Shown: positions 8,455 through 22,292 of the stretch, one piece after another
Layout: every line of letters starts with the position of its first letter
Position numbering within the stretch: position 1 is the first letter of the stretch
Origin: Desulfoferula mesophila
GTDB taxonomy: Bacteria; Desulfobacterota; Desulfarculia; Desulfarculales; Desulfarculaceae
Direction of reading: 5' to 3'
Length of the DNA: 64,000 nucleotides
NCBI RefSeq assembly: GCF_037076455.1
Contig: NZ_AP028679.1
Location: 1,937,501 to 2,001,500, forward strand
The notes under the pieces: generated by a model
What the model was told of the DNA's origin: nothing
Seen by the model: the letters and a program-made list of their open reading frames with translations, nothing else
Database searches by the model: none
Made by a program: the position numbers and the translations under genes

Positions 8455-11400
8455 TCAGGCGGCGGTCATGGCATCGATCTGGCTCATCAACTCGTCGTCG
8501 GTGAAGTGCTTCAAATAGATGGCTCCGGTGGGGCACTTGGCGTTGCACAGGCCGTCGCCCTTGCAGATCACCGGGTTGACCACCGCCTTTTGTCCCTTCT
8601 TGGTCTTGCGAAACTCTATGGCCCCATAGGTGCAGGCCTGGGCGCAGGCCCCGCAGCCCATGCAGCGGTCCTCTTGCACCTCGCACACCGATCCCGACAC
8701 AGTCACGATGTCGTTGGAGAGCAGGGTGACGGCCCGCCCCGCCGCGCCGTAGGCCTGGTTGATGGCCTCGGGGATGTGCTTGGGGTAGTGGGCCGTGCCG
8801 CAAAGGTAGACTCCGTCGGTGGCGAAGTCCACCGGCCGCAGCTTCACGTGGGCTTCCTTGAAGAAGTTGTCCGGCCCCAGGGAGACCTTGAACAACTGGG
8901 ATATATCCTTGTTGTCTTCTCTGGCCACCACCGCGGCGGCCAGGGTGACGATGTCCGCCCCGATGGCCAGCTCTTGTCCCAGGATGTAGTCGGGCAGGCT
9001 CACCTGCAACACCGGGCGGCCTTCCTCTTCAGTGGCCTCCACCTGGGGCGGGTTCTCCGGCTCGTAGCGGATGAACTTTATGTCCTTGGCCGAGGCCTCG
9101 CGGTAATAGTCCTCCAGCATGCCGTAGGTCCTGATGTCCCGGAACAGGATGTAGATATCCATCTCCGGGTTGATCTCTTTGAGCTTCAGGGCGTTCTTGA
9201 TGGACTCGCTGCAACACACGCGGGAGCAGTAGTTACGCTCCTCGTTGCGGCAACCCACGCACTGGATCATCACCAGGGTCTGGGCCCCGGTAACCGCCTC
9301 GTCGCCTAGGGCGATGCGCTCTTCCAACTCCAGGTGGGTCAGCACCCGCTCGTCCTGGCCGTAGAGATATTCGGTGGGCTTGTAGACATCCACGCCCGTG
9401 GCGACGACCGCGGCGCCGTGCTTGATCTCGCTGGTGCCCCGGTCCGACTTGAGCTTGGTCACGAAGTTGCCCACGTAGCCGGTAGCCTCGGTGATCTGGG
9501 CGTTGGCGTACACGTGGATGGCCGGATGCCGGTACACCCGGCGCACCAGGTCGTCCAAATAGGCCTGCACGTCCAAGCCGTCCAGGGTGTGGTGCAGCCG
9601 GCGGGCCATGCCTCCCAGGTCCGGCTCCTTTTCCACCAGGTGGACCTCATGGCCCTGGTTGGCGATGGAAAGGGCGCAGGTCATGCCGGCCAGGCCGCCG
9701 CCCACCACCAGGGCCGCCTTGTTCACCGGCAGGTCGATCTCCTGCAAAGGCTTGAGGTGCCCGGCCCGGGCCACGGACATGCGGATGATGTCCTGGGCCT
9801 TGCGGGTGGATTCCTCCTGCTCCTTGGAGTGGACCCAGGAGCAGTGCTCCCGGATGTTGGCCATGTCGTAATAGTATTGGTTCAGCCCCGCCTCGCGCAG
9901 GGTGTCGCGGAACAGGGGCTCCAGGGTGCGCGGGGAACAGGCGGCCACCACCACCCGGTTGAGGCCCTTTTCCTTGATGGTGTCGGTAATCTGCTTGGCC
10001 GAGTTGGTGGCGCAGGAGAAAAGCTGCTCCTGGGCATAGACCACGTTGGGCAGGCTCAGGGCGTATTCCACCGTGTTGGGCACGTCCACCACGCGGCCGA
10101 TGTTGGAGCCGCAGTGGCAAACGAACACGCCAATCTTGGGCTTTTCTCCAGAGACGTCCTTTTCCGCCGGGTACACCCGCTCCCTGGTCAGCCCGCCCCG
10201 GCGGTAGTCCAACAGCTCGCCTACCTGGGTGCCCGCCCCGCTGGCGGTGAACACCGACTCGGGGATGTCCATGGGACCCTGGAAGGCGCCGCACACATAC
10301 ACGCCGCGCCGGGTGGTTTCAATGGGGTTGGTGGTGGCGGCTTGGCAGAACCCGTGGTCGGTCAGCTCGATGCCCAGCTGCTCGGAGAGCTTCTTGTGGT
10401 CGGCGGGGGGATTGAGCCCCACCGACAACACCACCATGTCGAACTCTTCTTCCTTAACCCCTTCGTCGGGGGTGGAGTAGCGCACGAAGACGTTCTTGGT
10501 CTCCGGGTCTTCGCGCGACACGGTGGTGTAGGAACGGATGAAGCGCACGTCGGAGAGCTCCGAGGTGCGCTGGTAGTAACGCTCGAAATCCTTGCCATAG
10601 GCGCGGATATCGTTGTGGAACACCGTGCACTGAGCCCCGGCGTCGTGGTCCTTGGCCAGGATCACCTGTTTTTGGGTGTAGGAGCAGCACACCGCCGAGC
10701 AGTAGCTGTTGTCGCCCGGGGTAACCCGCCGCGAGCCCACGCATTGAATCCAGGCGATCTTGTGGGGGTGCTTGAGGTCCGAGCCCCGCAGGATCTCGCC
10801 CTCGTAAGGGCCGGTGGCGCACAGCAGGCGCTCGAAACCCATGCTGGTGACCACGTTGGTCAGCTCACCGTAGCCGTATTCTTTTTTCAGGCTGGGGTCA
10901 TAGGTTTCGTAGCCGGTGGCCAGCACGATGGCCCCCACCTTGATATCCATCTTTTCGGGCTTTTGCCGGAAATCGATGGCATCGGCCTGGCAGACGGCCT
11001 CGCAGATGCGGCATTTCTTTTCCTTGAGGTAAATGCAGCTCTCGTCGATGTAGGCGATCAGCGGTATGGCCTGGGCGAAATATATGTGAACAGCTTTGTT
11101 GTCCGATATTTCCTGATTGAATTTGTCGGGATACTCAACGGGGCAGTACTCCACACACGTGGTACAACCCGTGCAGCGGTCCTCGATGATATAGCGGGGC
11201 TTCCGGGTAAGGGTTATCTGGAAATCGCCCACGTCGCCTTCCACACTGTTTAGTTCAGTGTAGGACAGGACCTCGATATTTGGATGCCGGCCGACCTCGA
11301 CCAGTTTGGGCGAGAGTATTCACATGGAGCAGTCATTGGTGGGGTACGTCTTGTCCAACTGCGCCATATGCCCACCAATGGCTGGTCCGTTCTCGACCAA

Positions 11401-11532
11401 ATAGACCTTGTAACCGGCCGTGGCCAGATCCAGGGAAGCCTGGATCCCGCTGATCCCGCCGCCCAGGACCATTACGTCGCCGTAATTGTCCCCGCTGGGG
11501 ATGCTGCCATGCTCTTCGGTTTGCGTTTCCAT
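8455..11532 (-). CDS. bamE: BamE: HdrA-like multidomain flavoprotein, selenoprotein (UGA = Sec71)
   Basis: 1025 residues when the TGA at 11320-11322 is decoded. The N-terminal HdrA module has [15 protein letters not shown] near residue 24 and [12 protein letters not shown], then [19 protein letters not shown], where HdrA normally has Cys at the U position. Ferredoxin motifs [12 protein letters not shown] (about 120) and CRICEAVC follow. A second HdrA module begins with VFVCHCGSN (about 470), has a second FAD motif GGGLAGM (about 610), and ends with C-terminal ferredoxins [11 protein letters not shown] and [12 protein letters not shown] (about 960-1000). HdrA is the electron-bifurcating flavin subunit; in class II benzoyl-CoA reductase it is thought to feed BamC/BamB. 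Treating UGA as stop splits it into a 70-residue stub and a 5'-truncated gene. Confidence 0.88.
11287..11304 (-). promoter_or_regulatory. SECIS-like hairpin of bamE
   Basis: CUGGUC pairs with GGCCGG (6 bp, two G-U wobbles) round a GAGGUC loop lying 22-27 bases after the UGA. The GGUC in the loop resembles the E. coli fdhF SECIS loop as I recall it. Distance and leading G fit the bacterial consensus. Confidence 0.7.
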
Positions 11533-11564
11533 TCACCTATGCCTTTACCAGGGTTGAACGGTCC

Positions 11565-12728
11565 TTAAATGACCTCCTGGACTACCTCGGATATGTCTTT
11601 CACCTCCACCGACTCGCCATTATCCAGGGTCAGCCGGCTGTCCTCGAAGTTGGTGATGCAATAGGGGCAGGCGGTGACCAGCACCTGGGCTTCCAGGTCC
11701 ATGGCCTGTTGCAGGCGCAGATCGGAGAAGCGCTCCCCCTTGGGAGTTTCCATCCAGATGCGCCCCCCGCCACCGCCGCAGCACAGGCTGGTCTCCAGGC
11801 AGTCGGGCATCTCCGCCAACTCCAGGCCGGGCACCGAACCCAGCACCTGGCGGGGCTCGTCGTAAATCCCGTTGTGCCGGCCCAGGTAGCAGGGATCGTG
11901 GTAGGTGATCTTTTTGGCGTACTCGCCCTTGATCTCCAAACGGCCCTCCTGGATCAGTTGGGCCAAGAATTGGCTCATGTGGATCACCTCGAAGTTCACC
12001 ATGAACTCGGGGTATTCGTTCTTGAAGGTGTGATAGCAGTGGGGCGAGGAGACCAGGATCTTCTTCACCCCGGCGTCGATGAAGTTCTTGATGTTTTCCT
12101 TGGCCAGGCGGCGGAAAACCTCCTCATCGCCGGTCTTGCGGATGCTCTCGCCGCAGCAGCTTTCCTTTTCCCCCAGGATGCCGAACTCCACCCCCGCGGC
12201 CTTGAGCACCTGCACCGTGGCCTTGGCCACCTTTTTGAGGCGCTGGTCGTAGCTCAAGTAGCAGCCGGGGAAGTAGAGGATCTCCATTTCCTCGTCAAAG
12301 GTCTGCACCCCCAGGCCCTCGGCCCATTTGGCCCGGTCCTTGCGCTCTTCGCTCAGGGGGTTGCCTTCGCCCATGAGGCTGCCGCTGATGGTGCGGATGG
12401 GTTTCACCGCGGTGGGGAACACGCCGTACTCGGTGGCGATCTTGCGCAGGGCCACCCCGGATTCTATCTGCTTCACGTCGCGGGGGCAGCGGCTGGGACA
12501 CAGGCCGCAGGTGGTGCAGCGCCAGATGTCCTCGCTCTCGATGTCGGTGAAACCAAAGGTGGCTTGGCGCACGATCTTGCGCATGCTGAAATCGCGCACC
12601 CGGTTCCAGGGGCACACGGTATCGCAGAGGCCGCATTGGAAACACATCTTGAATGCGTCCCCGCCGCTGAGTTTTATGACCTCTACGATCTCTTTGTAAT
12701 CGGCTACGTTTTCCACTATCCGCCCCAA
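11565..12728 (-). CDS. bamD: BamD: HdrD/HdrBC-like iron-sulfur protein with CCG domains
   Basis: 387 residues. Two N-terminal 4Fe-4S motifs (CFQCGLCDTVCP near residue 34, CTTCGLCPSRCP near 71) precede two CCG domains (SCCGESIRKTG near 192, LCCGGGGGRIW near 312). This is the Hdr heterodisulfide-type subunit of the Bam complex, expected to accept one electron branch from BamE. The first in-frame start is TTG at 12728, but GGGGAG directly abuts it; the GTG at 12716 has better ribosome-binding spacing, so the N-terminus may be four residues shorter. The gene lies 76 bases after bamC and 32 bases before bamE. Confidence 0.85.
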   Translation of the reverse strand: MGRIVENVADYKEIVEVIKLSGGDAFKMCFQCGLCDTVCPWNRVRDFSMRKIVRQATFGFTDIESEDIWRCTTCGLCPSRCPRDVKQIESGVALRKIATEYGVFPTAVKPIRTISGSLMGEGNPLSEERKDRAKWAEGLGVQTFDEEMEILYFPGCYLSYDQRLKKVAKATVQVLKAAGVEFGILGEKESCCGESIRKTGDEEVFRRLAKENIKNFIDAGVKKILVSSPHCYHTFKNEYPEFMVNFEVIHMSQFLAQLIQEGRLEIKGEYAKKITYHDPCYLGRHNGIYDEPRQVLGSVPGLELAEMPDCLETSLCCGGGGGRIWMETPKGERFSDLRLQQAMDLEAQVLVTACPYCITNFEDSRLTLDNGESVEVKDISEVVQEVI

Positions 12729-12804
12729 CTCCCCGTTTCGGCCGCGGGCAGGCTATCCGCCACGGTGCATGATGGCCGCGCGTTTGGCGGCGTCGGCCGT
12801 TGGG

Positions 12805-13347
12805 CTAATCCTTTTTGTGCTGGGAAAGGCGGGCCATGGCGTCCCTGATCTTGTCCATGCCGAACTTGTCGGCCAGCGCCTCCAGCCCCACCTCCATCTC
12901 CTCCATCTCCTCGCCTTCTTCCACTTCCTCTTCCCGCTCTTCATAGGTGAGGGCGTCCACGATGCACCACTTGACGCAAAGGGGCTCGTCCTCGCCTTCG
13001 CACATGTCGCATTTCAGGGGAAGGCCGGAGTCGGGCTCCTTGAACAGGCTGCGTGAAGGGCAGGAGGCCCGGCAAAAGGCGCACTCGTCGTATTCCTTGC
13101 CGTCGATGATGTACTTGTCGCGGCCCATGCACTCGGCCGGGGTGTATTCGCCGGCGTACACCGGCACGTACACGTCCTTGAGCGGCTCGCGGATAACCCG
13201 GATGCGCGAGCGCTCCGGGTTGTTGCTGCTGTACTTGGGAGCGGCATGGAAGGCCGAGCAGATAACCTCGCAGGCCCGGCAGCCGTTGCACTTGTCCACG
13301 TCCACCTTGATGGTCTTGACGGTCTTGGTCTTTTTCTCGCCCGGCAC
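12805..13347 (-). CDS. bamC: BamC: ferredoxin-like electron-transfer subunit
   Basis: 180 residues with a DMSO-reductase-B/ferredoxin-like layout. Cysteine groups are CNGCRACEVIC near residue 18, CAFCRASC near 90, and CDMCEGEDEPLCVKWC near 115, enough for about three Fe-S clusters. A charged Glu-rich stretch follows (about 145-160). BamC passes electrons to the BamB active site in Geobacter. GTG start at 13347 with GGAGG seven bases upstream, sited inside the end of bamB; the two genes are separated by 2 bases, indicating tight coupling. Confidence 0.88.
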   Translation of the reverse strand: MPGEKKTKTVKTIKVDVDKCNGCRACEVICSAFHAAPKYSSNNPERSRIRVIREPLKDVYVPVYAGEYTPAECMGRDKYIIDGKEYDECAFCRASCPSRSLFKEPDSGLPLKCDMCEGEDEPLCVKWCIVDALTYEEREEEVEEGEEMEEMEVGLEALADKFGMDKIRDAMARLSQHKKD

Positions 13348-13349
13348 GG

Positions 13350-15359
13350 CTACGCCTCCTTTTCCTGGTCAGCCGCAGCTTTCTGGGGGGGAGCCTCCTC
13401 GTCCTTGGTAAGGATGCCGCGCTCGATAAAATCGTCGGCCACGTAGTCCAGCCCCAACTCGCGCAGGGTGGTCTCGGTGGGGATGCCGTCGGAGTTCCAG
13501 CCCTTGAAGGCGTAGTAGGTGTCCAAGAGCTCCTGCTCCAACTCGGGGAAGCGCTTCTTCCAGTGGTCCTTGGGCGGCTGCTCGTCCTTGCGGCGCATGC
13601 CCCGGCGGGTGTTGTTGGCCCTGACCAGGGTGCGGTAGCGCTTGATGGCCTGGGTCAGCTTCTCTTCGTCCATGTCATAGCCGGCCCCGGCGGAGATGAA
13701 CTTGGGGTAGTTGTGGATGTGGTAGGGCGGCTTGAGGGGGAAGGAGGACAGCCCGGCGCACATGCCCAGGGCGTCGTCGATGTAGTGCATCCGCTCCTGC
13801 CAATCCACGATGTCGCAGACCATGGGCGGGGTGGGGTAGTAGGGGATGGAGTTCTCCCCTCTGGGCTCCCAATCCAGGAAGTACTGCTTGAACTTCTCGT
13901 CCGGCACTTGGAACCAGTCCTTGACAAAGGCTTCCCGGTGCTCCCGCTTGGGGAAGGGGGCCTGGGGGAACTGACCCTCGATCTGGGTGATGTTTATCTT
14001 CTCGCCGGTGGCGTACATGATGAAATAGATGGGGTTGAGCATGGACAGCTTCAGGGGAAGCTGCTCGTGCTTCTTGATATTGTTGTGGGCGTACTCCTCG
14101 GCCCCCTTGCCGATGCGCTGGGCGGCCCAATAGGTGCCGTCGGCCAGGATGTCGCCGATGCCCTCGCGGCGCACAATGTGGTCCAAGAGCCAGTAGAAGC
14201 GCCCCTCGTTGTCCTCGGGCATGCCCGGGAAATCCTCGTCGGTGAGGATGCCGTTTTCCAACAGCTCCAGGGCGAAGGCCATCACCTGGGGAGCGGAGAA
14301 GCCGTCCACCCCGTACTCGGTGGCGCTCTGGGCGATGCCCAGGCCGAACTCCAGGTCGGCGAAGGCGGCCATGGTGTAGGTGAGCTTGGAGAAGCATTTC
14401 ATCATGTAGGTGGGCATGCCCGGCGGGGAAATGGTGGCCCCGCAGGTCATGGGGCAGTTGTAGCAGCTGATGAGCCGAGTGCGCATTTTATCCATGGTCT
14501 CGGTCCAGTCCCGCTCCACCTCTTCGCTCCAGAACTCCTTGCGGCGGGTCCGGGAGTTGCCCCAGGAGAAGTTTTCGGTGTGCCACTTCTCGTCGTGCAC
14601 CTTCATCTCTTGGGGCGAGCCCAGCCCGGCCAGGATGGGCATGACTCCGGGGACGGGGTTTTCATTGCGGAACTTGATGTATTCCAAGACCTCCTGGCAC
14701 AGCTCCATGAACTCCGCGGGGCGGGCCAGGCTGATGTCCTTGGTGCCGCGCACCACCACGGCCTTGAGGTTCTTGTCGCCCATCACCGCGCCGATGCCAC
14801 CCCGGCTGGCGCTGGAGCGGCCCTGCTCGATGGAGGCGAAGAACACGCGGTTTTCCCCGGCCATGCCGATGGCCGCCACCTGGGCCTTGGGTTCCTTGAG
14901 CTCTTGGCGGATCAACTCCGCGGTTTCCACGGACCCCCTGCCCCGAAGGTGCTCGGCGGCGCGCAGTTCCACCTTGTCGTTGTTTATGTACAGATAGACC
15001 AGCTCGGGCGACTTGCCCCGGAAGATAACCTTGTCGTACCCGGCGTATTTGAGCTCCGGGGCCCAGAAACCGCCCATCATGGAAAAGGCCATGAGCTTGG
15101 TCTGAGGGGAAATGGTGGTAACGATGGTGCGGTTGCAGCCGGTGGCCGGGGTGCCGCAAAGCAGGCCCGAGGCGAAGATCAAAAGGTTTTCCGGGGAAAA
15201 AGCATCCGCCTCCGGCGGCACCCGATCCCAAATGAGCTTGGCGTTGGTGCCCAACCCACCCAGGTACAACTCGGTGTCGCGGGGGTCGGTTTCCACCCGC
15301 TCGATGTTGCCGGTGGTAAGGTCTATTTCTAGGTTAAAACCTGTTTCTCCGTACCGCAT
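13350..15359 (-). CDS. bamB: BamB: tungsten benzoyl-CoA reductase catalytic subunit (class II, AOR family)
   Basis: 669 residues, ATG start. It catalyses ATP-independent two-electron dearomatisation of benzoyl-CoA to cyclohexa-1,5-diene-1-carbonyl-CoA. The AOR-family N-terminus has NIERVETDP and ELYLGGLGTNAKLIWDR, then PATGCNRTIV, EQGRSSASRGGIGAVMGDK, and the cluster motif CYNCPMTC at 299-306. Glu251, His260 and Cys322 sit at the positions I recall for the active site of the Geobacter BamB structure. That argues for a true BamB rather than a general aldehyde ferredoxin oxidoreductase. It is the first gene of the - strand bamBCDEF run, and a candidate promoter lies upstream. Activity on a related aryl-CoA is possible. 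Confidence 0.88.
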   Translation of the reverse strand: MRYGETGFNLEIDLTTGNIERVETDPRDTELYLGGLGTNAKLIWDRVPPEADAFSPENLLIFASGLLCGTPATGCNRTIVTTISPQTKLMAFSMMGGFWAPELKYAGYDKVIFRGKSPELVYLYINNDKVELRAAEHLRGRGSVETAELIRQELKEPKAQVAAIGMAGENRVFFASIEQGRSSASRGGIGAVMGDKNLKAVVVRGTKDISLARPAEFMELCQEVLEYIKFRNENPVPGVMPILAGLGSPQEMKVHDEKWHTENFSWGNSRTRRKEFWSEEVERDWTETMDKMRTRLISCYNCPMTCGATISPPGMPTYMMKCFSKLTYTMAAFADLEFGLGIAQSATEYGVDGFSAPQVMAFALELLENGILTDEDFPGMPEDNEGRFYWLLDHIVRREGIGDILADGTYWAAQRIGKGAEEYAHNNIKKHEQLPLKLSMLNPIYFIMYATGEKINITQIEGQFPQAPFPKREHREAFVKDWFQVPDEKFKQYFLDWEPRGENSIPYYPTPPMVCDIVDWQERMHYIDDALGMCAGLSSFPLKPPYHIHNYPKFISAGAGYDMDEEKLTQAIKRYRTLVRANNTRRGMRRKDEQPPKDHWKKRFPELEQELLDTYYAFKGWNSDGIPTETTLRELGLDYVADDFIERGILTKDEEAPPQKAAADQEKEA

Positions 15360-15812
15360 GCTTGCCTCTTCCCAATGGCTTTAACGGGGGTAGGACACGC
15401 CTTATCCTCCGGCACCCGCCCTCGACTTTGCCTTGCTATTGGCTTAGCGATCATACCTTTAGGAGGCGTGGACACATCGCAGTTATAATATGGCTACAAT
15501 GTAACTTCATGTCAAGGCAAAACCTGCCCCATGGATGCGTAGGGGGGTAGGACGGGCCATGCAGCGACACCAGAGAAGTAACTTACTCAAAAGTACGGTC
15601 TTTCCGGCACATAGACAGCGCTAGCCAGTTTGGGGTCACACCTGTTGGTAGCAGTGTTGCCCTGTCTTGTGTCTGTAATTCGACCCCATCGCGACCCACG
15701 AACCGGGGCGGTGAGCCTGGCGTCTGGCGATCCAGGTTCCTATCTGCAATAGGAAAATGCTAGAATTCGTTGAAGTAATGAGCTCAACCGCCCGTGGCGA
15801 CAGGAGTATTTC
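15360..15812. promoter_or_regulatory. Divergent intergenic region between bamB and the thiolase-fold gene
   Basis: 453 bases with no convincing gene. On the minus strand TTGACA (15510-15515) and TATTAT (15485-15490) form a possible but widely spaced (19 bp) promoter for bamB, leaving a leader of about 120 bases. On the plus side, a perfect 7-bp inverted repeat TTCCTAT/ATAGGAA (15737-15743 and 15749-15755) lies 58 bases before the thiolase-fold ATG and could be an operator. The region is visibly more AT-rich than the flanking genes. Confidence 0.45.
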
Positions 15813-16976
15813 ATGCAGATACGCGACAGATACGCAGTTGTGGGGGTGGGGTACACCCCGCAAGGGAAGGTACCCGACCGCACTTCCCTGAGTTTTCACC
15901 TGGAGGCCACGGCCAACGCCATCGCCGACGCGGGACTAAAAAAACAGGACATAGACGGGCTCATCTCCTACCGTCATTTTCCTCCCTGCCCTGGCGAGCC
16001 GGACCCGACGCCCCAGTTGCTGGCCCAGCAGTTGGGCCTGACCCCCACCTACCTCAGCCAGGACGCCAATTGATCCCGCTCGCATCTTATGCACGCAGTT
16101 GGCGTGCTGGACGCGGGGATTTGCAACTACGTGGTCATATCCTACGGGCACAGCGGCCTGTGGGGCGGGGGCATGCGCCAGTTGTTGTTCAACACCCGGC
16201 CCAGCGAGGCGGCCTTCGGGCACTTCGGGGCGGTGGGCCGCTACGCCCTGGCGGCCCGCCGGGGCATGCACGAATTTTCGCGCGGCCCGGATACCTGGAA
16301 GCACATCGCCATGGGCCAGCGCAAGTGGGCCAACCTGAACCCGGCGGCCATAATGCACGCCAAGCCCATGAGCGAGGAGGATTACTTCGGCGCTCCCTTG
16401 GTGGTGGAGCCCTTCCGTTTGTTCGACAACTGCCAGATCAATGACGGGGGACGGGCCATCATCGTGACCACGGCGGAGCGGGCCCGGGACCTCAAGCACC
16501 CGCCGGTGCTCCTGATGGGCCTGGGGATGCACAACCCCTCCAACGAAATTGCCCAGGCCCGCTACGTGGCCGGCCCCACCGGGGCAAAGCAGGCCGGGGA
16601 AGCGGCGTTCAAGATGGCCGGCATCGGCCTGGCGGAGGTGGACGCCTGCCAAATCTACGACTGCTTTACCTACACCGTGGAAGTCACCTTGCAGGACTAT
16701 GGTTTCTTCCCGCGCGGCGAAGGCGGGGACTGGATCCAGGGCGGAACCATAGAGCCCGGCGGGTCCATGCCGGTGAATACCTCCGGCGGTCAGCTCTCCG
16801 AGGCCTACTTCATGGGCCTCACCCCCATCTCCGAGGCGGTTATGCAGCTCATGGGGCGCTGCGGGGAGCGGCAACTGGGGCCCAAGACCCAAACCAAGAC
16901 GCCGGAAATAATCCTGTGCAGCGACAACGGCGGCACCCTGCAGTCGCACGCCTGTATGATCTTTAGGAGGGGCTAG
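15813..16976 (+). CDS. Thiolase-fold (SCP2/Ltp-type) protein with in-frame UGA, candidate selenoprotein (U87)
   Basis: 387 residues if the TGA at 16071-16073 is sense. The frame stays open on both sides without a shift: LTPTYLSQDAN then U then SRSHLMHAVGVLDAGICNYV. In the window's other thiolase (43562-44716) the same segment holds the nucleophile Cys83 (FYVETLCSSSSTG), one residue off in spacing from U87. The C-terminus has NTSGGQLSEAYFMG, where true thiolases have GHP, as in Ltp-type lyase/thiolase relatives that work with DUF35 partners. The DUF35 gene follows by 2 bases. Alternatives are a nonsense mutation or two split genes (86 and 295 residues). Start ATG after AGGAG. Confidence 0.6.
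16091..16107 (+). promoter_or_regulatory. SECIS-like hairpin in the thiolase-fold gene
   Basis: A perfect 6-bp stem GCACGC/GCGUGC encloses an AGUUG loop 24-28 bases after the UGA. An outer CCCGC/GCGGG pairing (16075-16079 with 16113-16117) can form beneath it. A G occupies loop position 2, and the distance falls in the bacterial range. Confidence 0.5.
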
Positions 16977-16978
16977 TC

Positions 16979-17386
16979 ATGTCCGGAGAAAGAATTCTGC
17001 CCATGCCCGACGCGGACAGCAAGCCGTTCTGGCAAGGCTGCCAAGAGCATGAATTGCACTTTCAGCAATGCGCCGCCTGCGGCGAGGTGCGCTGGCCGCC
17101 CAGCATCCTCTGCCCCGGCTGCCACTCCCGGGAGACCCGGTGGATCAAGGCCTCCGGTCAGGGCGTGGTCTACACCTTCGCCGTGTACCACCAGGCCTTT
17201 CACCCGGCCTTCAAGGGCCGCGTGCCCTACGTGGTGGCGGTGGTGCGCCTGGAAGAGGGGCCCATGTTGCTGACCAACATCGTCGGCTGCCCGCCCGAGG
17301 CGGTGGCTTGCGACATGCCGGTCCGGGTGGTTTGGGACGATCTCTCCGAAGAGTACAGCCTGCCCCAGTTCCGGCCGCTGGACTGA
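16979..17386 (+). CDS. DUF35 OB-fold/Zn-ribbon protein, thiolase partner
   Basis: 135 residues. A rubredoxin-like zinc ribbon (CAAC near residue 33, CPGC near 48) precedes an OB-fold with VVYTFAVYHQAFHP and PYVVAVVRLEEGPMLLTNIVG. DUF35 proteins form complexes with SCP2/Ltp-type thiolase-fold enzymes (for example ChsH2 with Ltp2, and BbsA with BbsB in anaerobic toluene degradation). The gene starts 2 bases after the candidate selenoprotein, with AGGAGGGG as ribosome-binding site inside its end, so the two should be made together. It may shape the acyl-CoA site of the partner. Confidence 0.85.
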   Translation: MSGERILPMPDADSKPFWQGCQEHELHFQQCAACGEVRWPPSILCPGCHSRETRWIKASGQGVVYTFAVYHQAFHPAFKGRVPYVVAVVRLEEGPMLLTNIVGCPPEAVACDMPVRVVWDDLSEEYSLPQFRPLD

Positions 17387-18713: not shown

Positions 18714-19742
18714 TTAGTCCTTGTGGGAGCGGTCCATGGGCCCCCATTGGAGCGCCGCGGCCGCGTAGTTGAAGCCGATTCCCGCAGCCGCCAGCCCCAC
18801 CACGCCGCTGTTGGGCAGCAGGCCCTTCCGGCGGGCCAGGTCCAGGGAAATCAGGGGATCGTTGGTGCCGTGATGGCCCAACTCGTACAAGGGCAGGGAT
18901 TGCTCTCCCTTCAGGCCCAGGCGGGCCAGCAGACGCGCCCGCAAGGCCGGAGCCAGATGCCGCAGGGCCAGGTAATGGGGCCGCCTACCCGTCAGAGCGC
19001 GCTCCACGACTTCGCCCAGCCGCCCCAGAAAGTTATCATCCAGATAGGAGCTGAGCAACTCGGGGTTAAAAGCGGTGAAGCGCATCAGGCGGGAATCAAG
19101 GTTGTCCGGGGCAAAGGGAATCTCGGTGCCCCCGCCGGGCACGTAGACCTCGTCGGCCATGGCCGGGTCGCTCTCCACGATCGCCCCGAGCAGGAGGTTG
19201 CGCTCCAGGCCGCGCTGGAGGAGCATCGCGCCCCCCGAGGCGGAACAGGCCAGCAGAAAGCGGGTGTACGGGTCGGCATAATCAACCAGGTCGATGTTGC
19301 GGGTTCCACCGGCCAGGAGCACCGTGTTGATGGCCGGATCGGCGGTCATCATGTCCCAGGCCACCTTGAGCCCCAGCACGGCGGTGATGCCCTGGCCCAC
19401 CAGGTCAAAGGCCCAGGCGTTGCGGCAGCCGCACTCCTCCTGCAAGCGGATGGAGGCGGTCTGGGCGATGTAGTCCTTGTATTCCTCGCCGATCCACAGC
19501 ACCAGATCCACCGTGGCCGGGTCCACATCGCCGGCATCGGTCAGGGCGGCCCGGGCCGCGCGGGCGGCCATGCCCACCGGCTGGTCCTTCGGCCCGGGCA
19601 GGGCCTTGGCCACGATGCCCAGTTCACTGAGTTGTTCCCGGCTCAGGCCGGAAAGTTCGGCTATCTCCTCGGCGCCCTGGATTTGGGAGGGGAGGTAGAT
19701 CCCCAGCCCGGCCAGGCCCACCACAGCGGACGGATCAGGCAT
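18714..19742 (-). CDS. KAS III-fold protein lacking the catalytic cysteine
   Basis: 342 residues of the thiolase superfamily, FabH/HMG-CoA synthase branch. It aligns with the companion protein encoded at 21255-22292 through NAWAFDLVGQG versus NAWSFDMQQRC, so the nucleophile Cys is Gly here. Both share GHHGTND/GHHGQND where FabH has a GNTSSAS-type loop, plus a glycine-rich C-terminus (AAAGIGFNYAAAALQWG). ATG at 19742 overlaps the ligase stop; an in-frame GTG at 19751 is the alternative. Likely a non-catalytic partner of a heterodimeric condensing enzyme, as in PqsBC-like pairs. This is inference; reaction unknown. Confidence 0.75.
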   Translation of the reverse strand: MPDPSAVVGLAGLGIYLPSQIQGAEEIAELSGLSREQLSELGIVAKALPGPKDQPVGMAARAARAALTDAGDVDPATVDLVLWIGEEYKDYIAQTASIRLQEECGCRNAWAFDLVGQGITAVLGLKVAWDMMTADPAINTVLLAGGTRNIDLVDYADPYTRFLLACSASGGAMLLQRGLERNLLLGAIVESDPAMADEVYVPGGGTEIPFAPDNLDSRLMRFTAFNPELLSSYLDDNFLGRLGEVVERALTGRRPHYLALRHLAPALRARLLARLGLKGEQSLPLYELGHHGTNDPLISLDLARRKGLLPNSGVVGLAAAGIGFNYAAAALQWGPMDRSHKD

Positions 19743-21258
19743 GGTCCGCACCCCCGTGCTCCTTTTTGAGGATGAATTTTTGTACCTTGCTGGAGGCGGC
19801 GGTGCGCGGCAGCTCGTCGATCACCGCCAGGTACTTGGGCAGCTTGTAGCGTCCCAGGCGAGGCTGCAGGAACTCCAGCAGGCCGGCCAGGTCCAGGCTC
19901 TGGCCTTGGCGCAACTCCACCACCGCCTTGGGCACCTCGCCCCACTTGGGGTCCGGCACCCCGATCACCGCCGCGGCATTCACCGCCGGGTGCTCCACCA
20001 GGTGCATCTCGATCTCCGCCGGGTAGATGTTGGCTCCGCCGGAGATGATCATGTCTTTTTTGCGGCCCACGATGGAAACGTGACCGTCCGTGTCCATGCG
20101 GCCCAGGTCGCCGGTGTGGAACCAGCCTTTCTGGATGGCCTCGGCCGTGGCCTCGGGCTTGTTCCAGTATCCGGCGCTCATGTGCGCGCCGCGCAGCAAA
20201 ATCTCGCCGTCTTGCCCGGCCTCCACCGGGAGCCCCTGATCATCCACCAGCGAGACGTCCACCCCGGGCATGGCGTTGCCGAAGGTGCCCGGCTTGCCAT
20301 TGCCCATGAAGTTGTTGGGCCCGATCTCGGTGAGGCCGTAGCCCTCCCAGATGCGCAGGCCCTTCTGCTCCTGGTAGGCGCGGATGAGTTGCAGATCCAG
20401 GGCCGCGCCGCCGGAGATGCAAAAGCGCAGAGAGCTGAGGTCCGCCTTGGGAAAGGCCGGCGACTCCAACATCATCTGGTACATGGTGGGCACCCCGAAA
20501 AACACGCTGACCCGTTCGCGCTCGATCAACTCCAGCACCTGGTCGGCCTCGAAGCTGGGCACCAGGATGTTGGCCCCCCGGTTCATGAACAGGGGCAGGG
20601 TGAAGACGTTCCACCCGGCGGTGTAGTACATGGCCGCGTGCAGGATGGTGCGGTCGCCGGGGCGCAGGCCCCAGCCCAGCACCGTGTTGTGGCCGTTGGC
20701 CGCGATGGAACCGTGGGTGAGCACCACCCCCTTGGGCAGGCCGGTGGTGCCCGAGGTGTAGATGATGAGCTGGGGGTCGTCGGGGGCGATCTCCACCGCG
20801 GGCAGGGAACCCGAGGGCAGGGCGGCCCAGGCCGAGGGCAGGGACAGTCCGGGGCCGGCTCCGTGGTCGAAACACACCAATTGCTCGATGGCGTGCTTGG
20901 CGGCCAGTTCACCGGCCTGCGTCCGGTGGCCGCCGTCGCAGAACAGGGCTTTGGGGGAGCAGTCGTTCAAGTAATAGTCGAACTCGCCCGCGGCCAAGCG
21001 GAAGTTCAGGGGCACCAGCACCGCGCCCAGGCGGCTGGCCGCGAAGAACAGGGTGATGATCTCCTCCCGGTTCAGGGAGAGGCAGGCCACCCGGTCGCCC
21101 TTGACGATCTTGAGCTCGTTGCCCAGCAGATGGGCCAGGTGATCTATATCCTGGGCCAGTTGCGCGTAGGTGTAGCGCCGGCCGGTCAACTCGCTCACCA
21201 GGGCCTCGCGGCCGCCGTCGGCTTGGCCCCAGCGTCCTATCCAGTCGCCGTAGATCAT
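19735..21258 (-). CDS. AMP-dependent acyl-CoA synthetase/ligase
   Basis: 507 residues of the ANL superfamily. The AMP-binding P-loop IIYTSGTTGLPKGV, GYGLTEIGPNN, the hinge HTGDLGRMDTDGHVSIVGRKKDMIISGG and a C-terminal lysine domain are all present. It activates a carboxylic acid to its CoA thioester. ATG at 21258 overlaps the preceding stop as ATGA; the longer upstream frame is only read-through of the other gene. It lies between two KAS III-fold genes in the same operon, suggesting that it supplies their acyl-CoA substrate. Substrate not determinable. Confidence 0.9.
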   Translation of the reverse strand: MIYGDWIGRWGQADGGREALVSELTGRRYTYAQLAQDIDHLAHLLGNELKIVKGDRVACLSLNREEIITLFFAASRLGAVLVPLNFRLAAGEFDYYLNDCSPKALFCDGGHRTQAGELAAKHAIEQLVCFDHGAGPGLSLPSAWAALPSGSLPAVEIAPDDPQLIIYTSGTTGLPKGVVLTHGSIAANGHNTVLGWGLRPGDRTILHAAMYYTAGWNVFTLPLFMNRGANILVPSFEADQVLELIERERVSVFFGVPTMYQMMLESPAFPKADLSSLRFCISGGAALDLQLIRAYQEQKGLRIWEGYGLTEIGPNNFMGNGKPGTFGNAMPGVDVSLVDDQGLPVEAGQDGEILLRGAHMSAGYWNKPEATAEAIQKGWFHTGDLGRMDTDGHVSIVGRKKDMIISGGANIYPAEIEMHLVEHPAVNAAAVIGVPDPKWGEVPKAVVELRQGQSLDLAGLLEFLQPRLGRYKLPKYLAVIDELPRTAASSKVQKFILKKEHGGADHA

Positions 21259-22292
21259 TTGCCGTTCTCCGCCGCGCCCCAGCGCATGAGCACCACGTCC
21301 CAGGCGTATCCGATACCCGCCGAAATCATCAGCACCAGGTCGCCGTCCTTGAGCCGCCCTTCCTCCAGGGCCAGCTCCAGGGAGAGAATCTGGTCGTTCT
21401 GGCCGTGGTGGCCGAACTCGGCCAGGTAGCGGGTCTGCTCGGGCGCCAGACCCAACTGCTCCATCAGGTAGTCGTGGGCTGAGCGCTTGACCAGCAGGGT
21501 GGCCAGGTAGTCCACGTCGCCCCGCGTGTAGCCCGCCTTGGCAAGGGCCCGGTCGATGCACACCAGCCAGTTGCTCAGGCTGAGTTTTTCCAGGCGCTCT
21601 TTCATGCCCACCGGGTCCATGACGTCAAGGTATTGCCGACCCGCTGCCAGGCCCTCCAGGGTCATGGGCGCGGCCGAGCCGCCTTCGGGCACGTAAACGT
21701 CCCAGGCAAAGGAGCCGTCGCTCATGAAGTGGCTGGAGATGATCTGGTTCTTGGGGCAGGCGCGCTGCACCACGCAGGCGGCACCGCCTGCGGCCAGGTA
21801 ATACATCCAGCGCACCCGGGGGTTGGGGTAGTGGATGAGATCGGCGTTGCGGTAGGCGCTGGCGATGAGGATGTTGTCGATGCCGTCGTTGGCTCGGATC
21901 AAATCCTGGGCCACCTTGAGGGCCACCAGGGTGGTGCCGCAGCGTTGCTGCATGTCAAAGGACCAGGCGTTTTCTATGCCCAACTCCTTTTGCACCTTGG
22001 TGCCCACCGGCCAGTTGCGGTACTCCTTGATCTCCTCGCCGGACCAGATCACCAGGTCTATGTCTTGAGGTTTCAGGTTGGAGTAATACAGGGCCTTGCG
22101 CGCCGCCTTGAGGCCCATGGCCACGGTGCCGTCCCCCGGGCCGGGCACGTTCTTCTGATACCAGCCCAGCTTGGTGCGGATGATATCGGCCGGGGTGTCG
22201 CACTGGGAGGCGATGTAGTCCGCGTCGTGATAGGCGCGGGGGATGTAGGCGGCAAAGCTCAGGATGCCGGCCTCGGCTTTCAGATCAGGCAT
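21255..22292 (-). CDS. KAS III-fold condensing enzyme-like protein with catalytic cysteine
   Basis: 345 residues, FabH/HMG-CoA synthase-like. Candidate nucleophile Cys118 sits in SFDMQQRCGTTLVALKVAQ. The canonical FabH HQAN motif and the GNTSSAS Asn loop are not recognisable; the protein has VKRSAHDYLM and FGHHGQNDQ instead, so this is a divergent subfamily. It overlaps LivM by 8 bases upstream and the ligase by 4 downstream. With the Cys-less homologue two genes on it could form an active/inactive pair for acyl-CoA condensation or the reverse cleavage. Confidence 0.8.
   Translation of the reverse strand: MPDLKAEAGILSFAAYIPRAYHDADYIASQCDTPADIIRTKLGWYQKNVPGPGDGTVAMGLKAARKALYYSNLKPQDIDLVIWSGEEIKEYRNWPVGTKVQKELGIENAWSFDMQQRCGTTLVALKVAQDLIRANDGIDNILIASAYRNADLIHYPNPRVRWMYYLAAGGAACVVQRACPKNQIISSHFMSDGSFAWDVYVPEGGSAAPMTLEGLAAGRQYLDVMDPVGMKERLEKLSLSNWLVCIDRALAKAGYTRGDVDYLATLLVKRSAHDYLMEQLGLAPEQTRYLAEFGHHGQNDQILSLELALEEGRLKDGDLVLMISAGIGYAWDVVLMRWGAAENGK

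Follow-up and report, generated by a model that had tools for sequence, protein, structure and literature searches.

The solved sequences closest to the protein analyzed here are a putative thiolase of Sphaerobacter thermophilus (4U4E; PRK06158-type), whose function is untested, and two aldolases that have a DUF35 partner. These are the steroid side-chain aldolase TcLtp2-ChsH2(DUF35) (Ltp2; 6OK1) and the bile acid aldolase CtSal-Shy(DUF35) (Sal; 9MYR). In CtSal, the Tyr and Cys of the YDC motif have been tested and are catalytic (PMC12329534). A pair of thiolase-fold and DUF35 proteins also constitutes the benzoylsuccinyl-CoA thiolase BbsAB (7PXP), a more remote relative (1.5e-19, Z 43). Neither thiolases nor acyltransferases nor aldolases occur among the 119 prokaryotic selenoprotein families in a catalogue of May 2026 (PMC13188914), and all three are absent from the deep-Sep list of 2025. 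An initial sequence-only reading of the locus had stated that no described selenocysteine (Sec) enzyme with a thiolase fold was known to it. We likewise found none in the catalogue, the deep-Sep list or phrase searches; an earlier report in a subscription journal cannot be excluded.

The window, i.e. the whole stretch of 64,000 nucleotides from Desulfoferula mesophila that was analyzed, contains a frame of 387 codons with a single TGA at codon 87, as had been noticed from its letters. The following features define the gene:

15802-15806, plus strand: ribosome-binding site AGGAG, with the ATG 6 nt downstream (from the sequence)
15813-16976, plus strand: selenoprotein gene, thiolase-superfamily catalytic subunit (Thiolase_C_1; Ltp2/Sal-like), 387 aa (Pfam PF22691 4e-41, 45 orthologues, PDB relatives 4u4e/6ok1/9myr)
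16071-16073, plus strand: UGA codon 87, read as selenocysteine (from the codons of the orthologues)

The best overall explanation, which we consider likely in the absence of data on expression, selenium or activity, is a Sec-containing, DUF35-partnered, Ltp2/Sal-like enzyme acting on C-C bonds.

Decoding of the in-frame UGA

Relatives were collected from GTDB genomes and 45 non-redundant orthologues (61-100% identity) were kept. Codon 87 was TGA in 32 of these and TGC or TGT in the remaining 13, with no other codon observed. This meets the criterion for a bacterial selenoprotein, a conserved in-frame UGA that is swapped only for Cys, and passes the check that had been proposed at the outset, namely that orthologues should carry Cys or UGA at position 87. 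At the Sec position of relatives with less than ~45% identity, the residue is Ser, Thr, Asn or Gln. Further lesions would have spoken against the proposal; no other in-frame stops were present in the orthologues, with the exception of one fragment (L044).

If the TGA were an ordinary stop, the mark of a pseudogene or a sequencing error, the locus would consist of two separate fragments, and a shorter frame does start past the stop, from an ATG at 16089. However, 32 distinct genomes share the TGA at this codon and all others have Cys, the protein is conserved on both sides of it, and the SECIS element covaries (see below). We regard this explanation as virtually ruled out. It is already refuted by the 32 TGA orthologues, unless an artefact is common to all 32 assemblies.

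A tree was built from 34 rows. Beside the Sec forms, it placed six Cys forms from Thermodesulfobacteriota, Aquificota and other MAGs. The Sec-dominated clade as a whole had moderate support (90/81). Nested in it, within a group of six (support 100/100), was a Cys form from the host's own family (G009), which is without the hairpin. This position suggests a change from Sec to Cys. The selenoprotein occurs across sulfate reducers, syntrophs and relatives; one named strain with the Sec form is Desulfatibacillum alkenivorans DSM 16219 (L018). Since natural Sec and Cys forms exist, even between genera of one family, the benefit of selenium is directly testable.

The host had been expected to possess the Sec machinery, and selA, selB, the gene for tRNA-Sec (selC) and selD were all located in the genome, with selD itself carrying an in-frame TGA. 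Note that the hosts of Cys forms also have this machinery. Its presence thus does not decide between Sec and Cys forms, and we dropped it as a discriminator. The combination of UGA, SECIS and SelB machinery is shared with bacterial selenoproteins that have an in-frame SECIS (HdrA2, SelD). Two further genes of the window had been thought to use UGA for Sec. One could be identified, the HdrA2 gene at 8455-11532 (minus strand), with an in-frame UGA at 11320 within the motif DCSMU; the second was not identified. HdrA is an already known selenoprotein family (NF040770).

The element downstream of the UGA is as follows:

16090-16108, plus strand: SECIS hairpin GCACGC-AGUUG-GCGUGC plus one flanking base per side, with the loop G-U at 16098-16099 (covariation, codon bias, folds)

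The perfect 6-bp hairpin with an AGUUG loop that had been noted earlier is present, with its 5' arm GCACGC at 16091-16096 and its 3' arm GCGTGC at 16102-16107. The loop AGTTG (16097-16101) is located 24-28 nt past the UGA. According to the bSECIS model, a loop of 3-9 nt, a stem of 4-16 bp, a G in the first two loop positions and a spacing of 16-37 nt are required (PMC13188914). The energy limit was an MFE of at most -7.5 kcal/mol. The window gene satisfies these rules (MFE -10.4), and the layout is satisfied in all 32 TGA genes; as isolated hairpins, 4 of 25 reached -6.5 to -7.1 kcal/mol, slightly weaker than the limit. Compared with shuffled sequences, the window hairpin on its own folded only mildly better (z -1.6). 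The case therefore rests on comparison, the conservation in 32 orthologues being the proof.

All 32 TGA genes have a hairpin 23 nt downstream of the TGA with an invariant loop G-U, which is found in none of the 13 Cys genes. The loop takes the form N1-G-U-N2-(G/A). Of the six stem pairs, five are present without exception in the TGA genes, and half of the genes (16/32) have a mismatch, A.C or U.C, at the remaining one. N1 and N2 are the third codon positions of an Ala and a Val codon (GCA-GTT, GCG-GTC, GCC-GTG), and thus synonymous sites. They are paired in 31 of the 32 genes (A-U 21, G-C 6, C-G 4). Among 25 sequences, 8 cells changed on both sides of N1-N2, versus a mean of 1.1 after shuffling, and controls in slid registers scored below the real one. 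The codon pair GCA-GTT was observed at 72%, where the remainder of each gene would predict 2.8%. The sole Sec gene with unpaired N1-N2 (C-U) was L063.

The exchange of Sec for Cys only, the covarying SECIS and the host machinery together lend strong support to the original proposal of a new selenoprotein. From these comparisons of sequence, it is close to certain that the gene seemingly split by a stop codon is one genuine selenoprotein gene with predicted insertion of Sec. We have hardly any doubt about the route, in which UGA87 would be decoded by SelB and tRNA-Sec, directed to it by the short in-frame hairpin just downstream. Other Sec thiolase-fold genes may carry truncated annotations.

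Putative catalytic residues and the position of Sec87

NCBIfam models matched the protein, but only under their cut-offs. By fold comparison, it was most similar to 4u4e (Z 49.1), followed by Ltp2 (48.5) and Sal (48.1), with classical thiolases at ~34. 4U4E is also the nearest solved sequence (1.3e-62) but has Ser at the Sec position. Three sites are central to the comparison:

16065-16067, plus strand: codon of Ala85, the position of the canonical nucleophile Cys (Gly89 of CtSal; alignments)
16656-16664, plus strand: Tyr282-Asp283-Cys284 motif, matching Tyr302 and Cys304, both catalytic in CtSal (alignment; invariant in the family)
16806-16808, plus strand: Tyr332, corresponding to the catalytic Tyr344 of TcLtp2 (alignment; invariant in the family)

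Neither of the two criteria for a classical thiolase was met. The nucleophilic Cys that opens the active-site helix of the N-domain is replaced by Ala85 in 31/31 aligned members, and instead of the His of GHP near the C-terminus there is EAYxMG with the invariant Tyr332. The absence of this His, recognized at first inspection, was borne out, with SEAYFMG standing where thiolases have GHP. In contrast, the criterion for Ltp2/Sal aldolases, the Tyr base of YDxF/Y plus an acid, either the Cys of YDC or the Tyr of EAY, was met (roles: PMC12329534). Tyr282, Cys284, Tyr332 and Arg89 are invariant in the 31 aligned members. A set of four residues, Gln83, Ala85, Sec/Cys87 and Arg89, is found without exception within the family but not in outgroups.

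With TcLtp2, the protein shares the fold, the DUF35 partner, the catalytic Tyr of YDxF and a second catalytic Tyr in GGQLxEAYxxG; TcLtp2 differs in having the His of YDHF in place of Cys284 and Ala at the Sec position. With CtSal, it shares the catalytic Tyr and Cys of YDC, the DUF35 partner and a helix start without a nucleophile Cys. Here the differences are Gly89/Ser91 versus Ala85/Sec87, Gln352 versus Tyr332, and a DUF35 domain that is fused to a hydratase. As judged by alignment and fold, the protein is closest to the DUF35-dependent Ltp2/Sal aldolases, with the putative catalytic residues Tyr282, Cys284 and Tyr332 kept.

The UGA had been placed in the nucleophile segment, where the second thiolase of the window has its nucleophile Cys83. 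The segment was correct, but Sec87 is not at the nucleophile position; in the alignment it is two residues C-terminal of the residue matching that Cys, and it corresponds to Ser91 of CtSal. We rejected the canonical nucleophile position for Sec87 on account of this +2 shift. In an AlphaFold2 model (pLDDT 85, pTM 0.90), residues 85-90 formed a loop and the helix did not begin until 91. As a control, the Cys thiolase of the same genome (L004) was modelled; there, the helix began at 82 and contained the nucleophile Cys83. Thus, the nucleophile segment appears to be remodelled in the model, with Sec87 inside it. The confidence of the model is moderate around residue 87 (pLDDT ~71) and no distances are available, leaving contact of Sec87 with the CoA pocket an inference.

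The main rival to the aldolase reading is a Claisen-type thiolase with a relocated nucleophile, in which Sec87 replaces the missing Cys and takes up the acyl group; the resulting acyl-selenoenzyme would undergo either condensation with an enolate or cleavage by CoA. The canonical position is Ala85 with the chalcogen always two residues on, the model shows a remodelled loop, and the relatives include the DUF35-partnered BbsAB and archaeal acetoacetyl-CoA thiolase, all of which would be consistent with such an enzyme. However, Tyr332 stands for the His of GHP as in Ltp2, the HDCF of SCP2 thiolases is replaced by the YDCF of Sal-type proteins, and the nearest characterised relatives in sequence and fold are aldolases. 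We consider this rival unlikely. A redox role, with Sec87 and one of the invariant Cys residues (104, 207 or 284) forming a selenenylsulfide switch or taking part in a reductive step, appears still less plausible. In its favor, a redox function is assumed for the majority of known selenoproteins, and Cys104, Cys207 and Cys284 are invariant across both Sec and Cys forms. Against it, UxxC and CxxU motifs are both lacking, the fold is not of an oxidoreductase type and the homologous enzymes are not redox enzymes.

Beyond the insertion of Sec, which is predicted from sequence, all statements on the chemistry, the substrate and the function of Sec are untested inferences. For the aldolase reading, we infer, with about an even chance of being right, Ltp2/Sal-like making or breaking of C-C bonds beside a CoA thioester, where Tyr282 would act as base and Cys284 and/or Tyr332 would donate a proton in an aldol or retro-aldol reaction on acyl-CoA. 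It seems somewhat more probable that Sec87, in a remodelled loop where the nucleophile helix would otherwise have its first turns, serves as an added active-site nucleophile or a low-pKa group for proton transfer; this too is inferred. Whether the protein is the first thiolase-fold selenoenzyme, with a non-redox Sec at +2 from the canonical nucleophile that acts as nucleophile or in proton transfer in acyl-CoA C-C chemistry, is in our estimate evenly balanced. Known selenoproteins being mostly thought to be redox or metal-binding, Sec in a superfamily of C-C bond enzymes would broaden the uses of selenium.

DUF35 partner and gene neighbourhood

The gene that follows is preceded by AGGAGG:

16979-17386, plus strand: DUF35 partner (zf-ChsH2 + OB_ChsH2_C), 135 aa, with a four-Cys zinc ribbon (Pfam; next gene in 32/32 loci examined)

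The requirement of Ltp2 and Sal for a DUF35 partner is met in the form of this adjacent gene, a physical complex being inferred. The gap between the two genes is less than 10 bp in 31 of the 32 loci. In the remaining one, ~355 bp with a 106-aa frame lie between them (L015:7162-7519). Based on gene order and the solved relatives, it is very likely that the enzyme has two subunits, with the thiolase-fold selenoprotein as the catalytic one, which would pair with the adjacent DUF35 protein. A lyase or a modified condensation with DUF35 had been suggested initially, which fits with the nearest solved proteins in sequence and fold: besides one thiolase-like protein that is uncharacterised, these are the aldolases Ltp2 and Sal.

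A search for shared pathway genes around the loci revealed none that are widely common beyond DUF35, leaving the substrate and the direction of the reaction open. Assignment of a pathway from neighbours was rejected for this reason. Unlike TcLtp2, no common steroid-pathway neighbours were seen at the selenoprotein loci.

Divergent from the thiolase-fold gene, the window contains a row of genes for HdrA2, a CCG-domain Fe-S protein, a ferredoxin-like protein and an aldehyde ferredoxin oxidoreductase (8455-15359, minus strand). These possibly form a unit for aldehyde oxidation, a good match for an aldolase whose product is an aldehyde. The row is not conserved beside other orthologues, however, and an aldehyde ferredoxin oxidoreductase was not found in the flanks of their loci. 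Two KAS III-like proteins (PRK06840 type) are encoded at 18714-19751 and 21255-22292 (minus strand), near a branched-chain-type ABC transporter.
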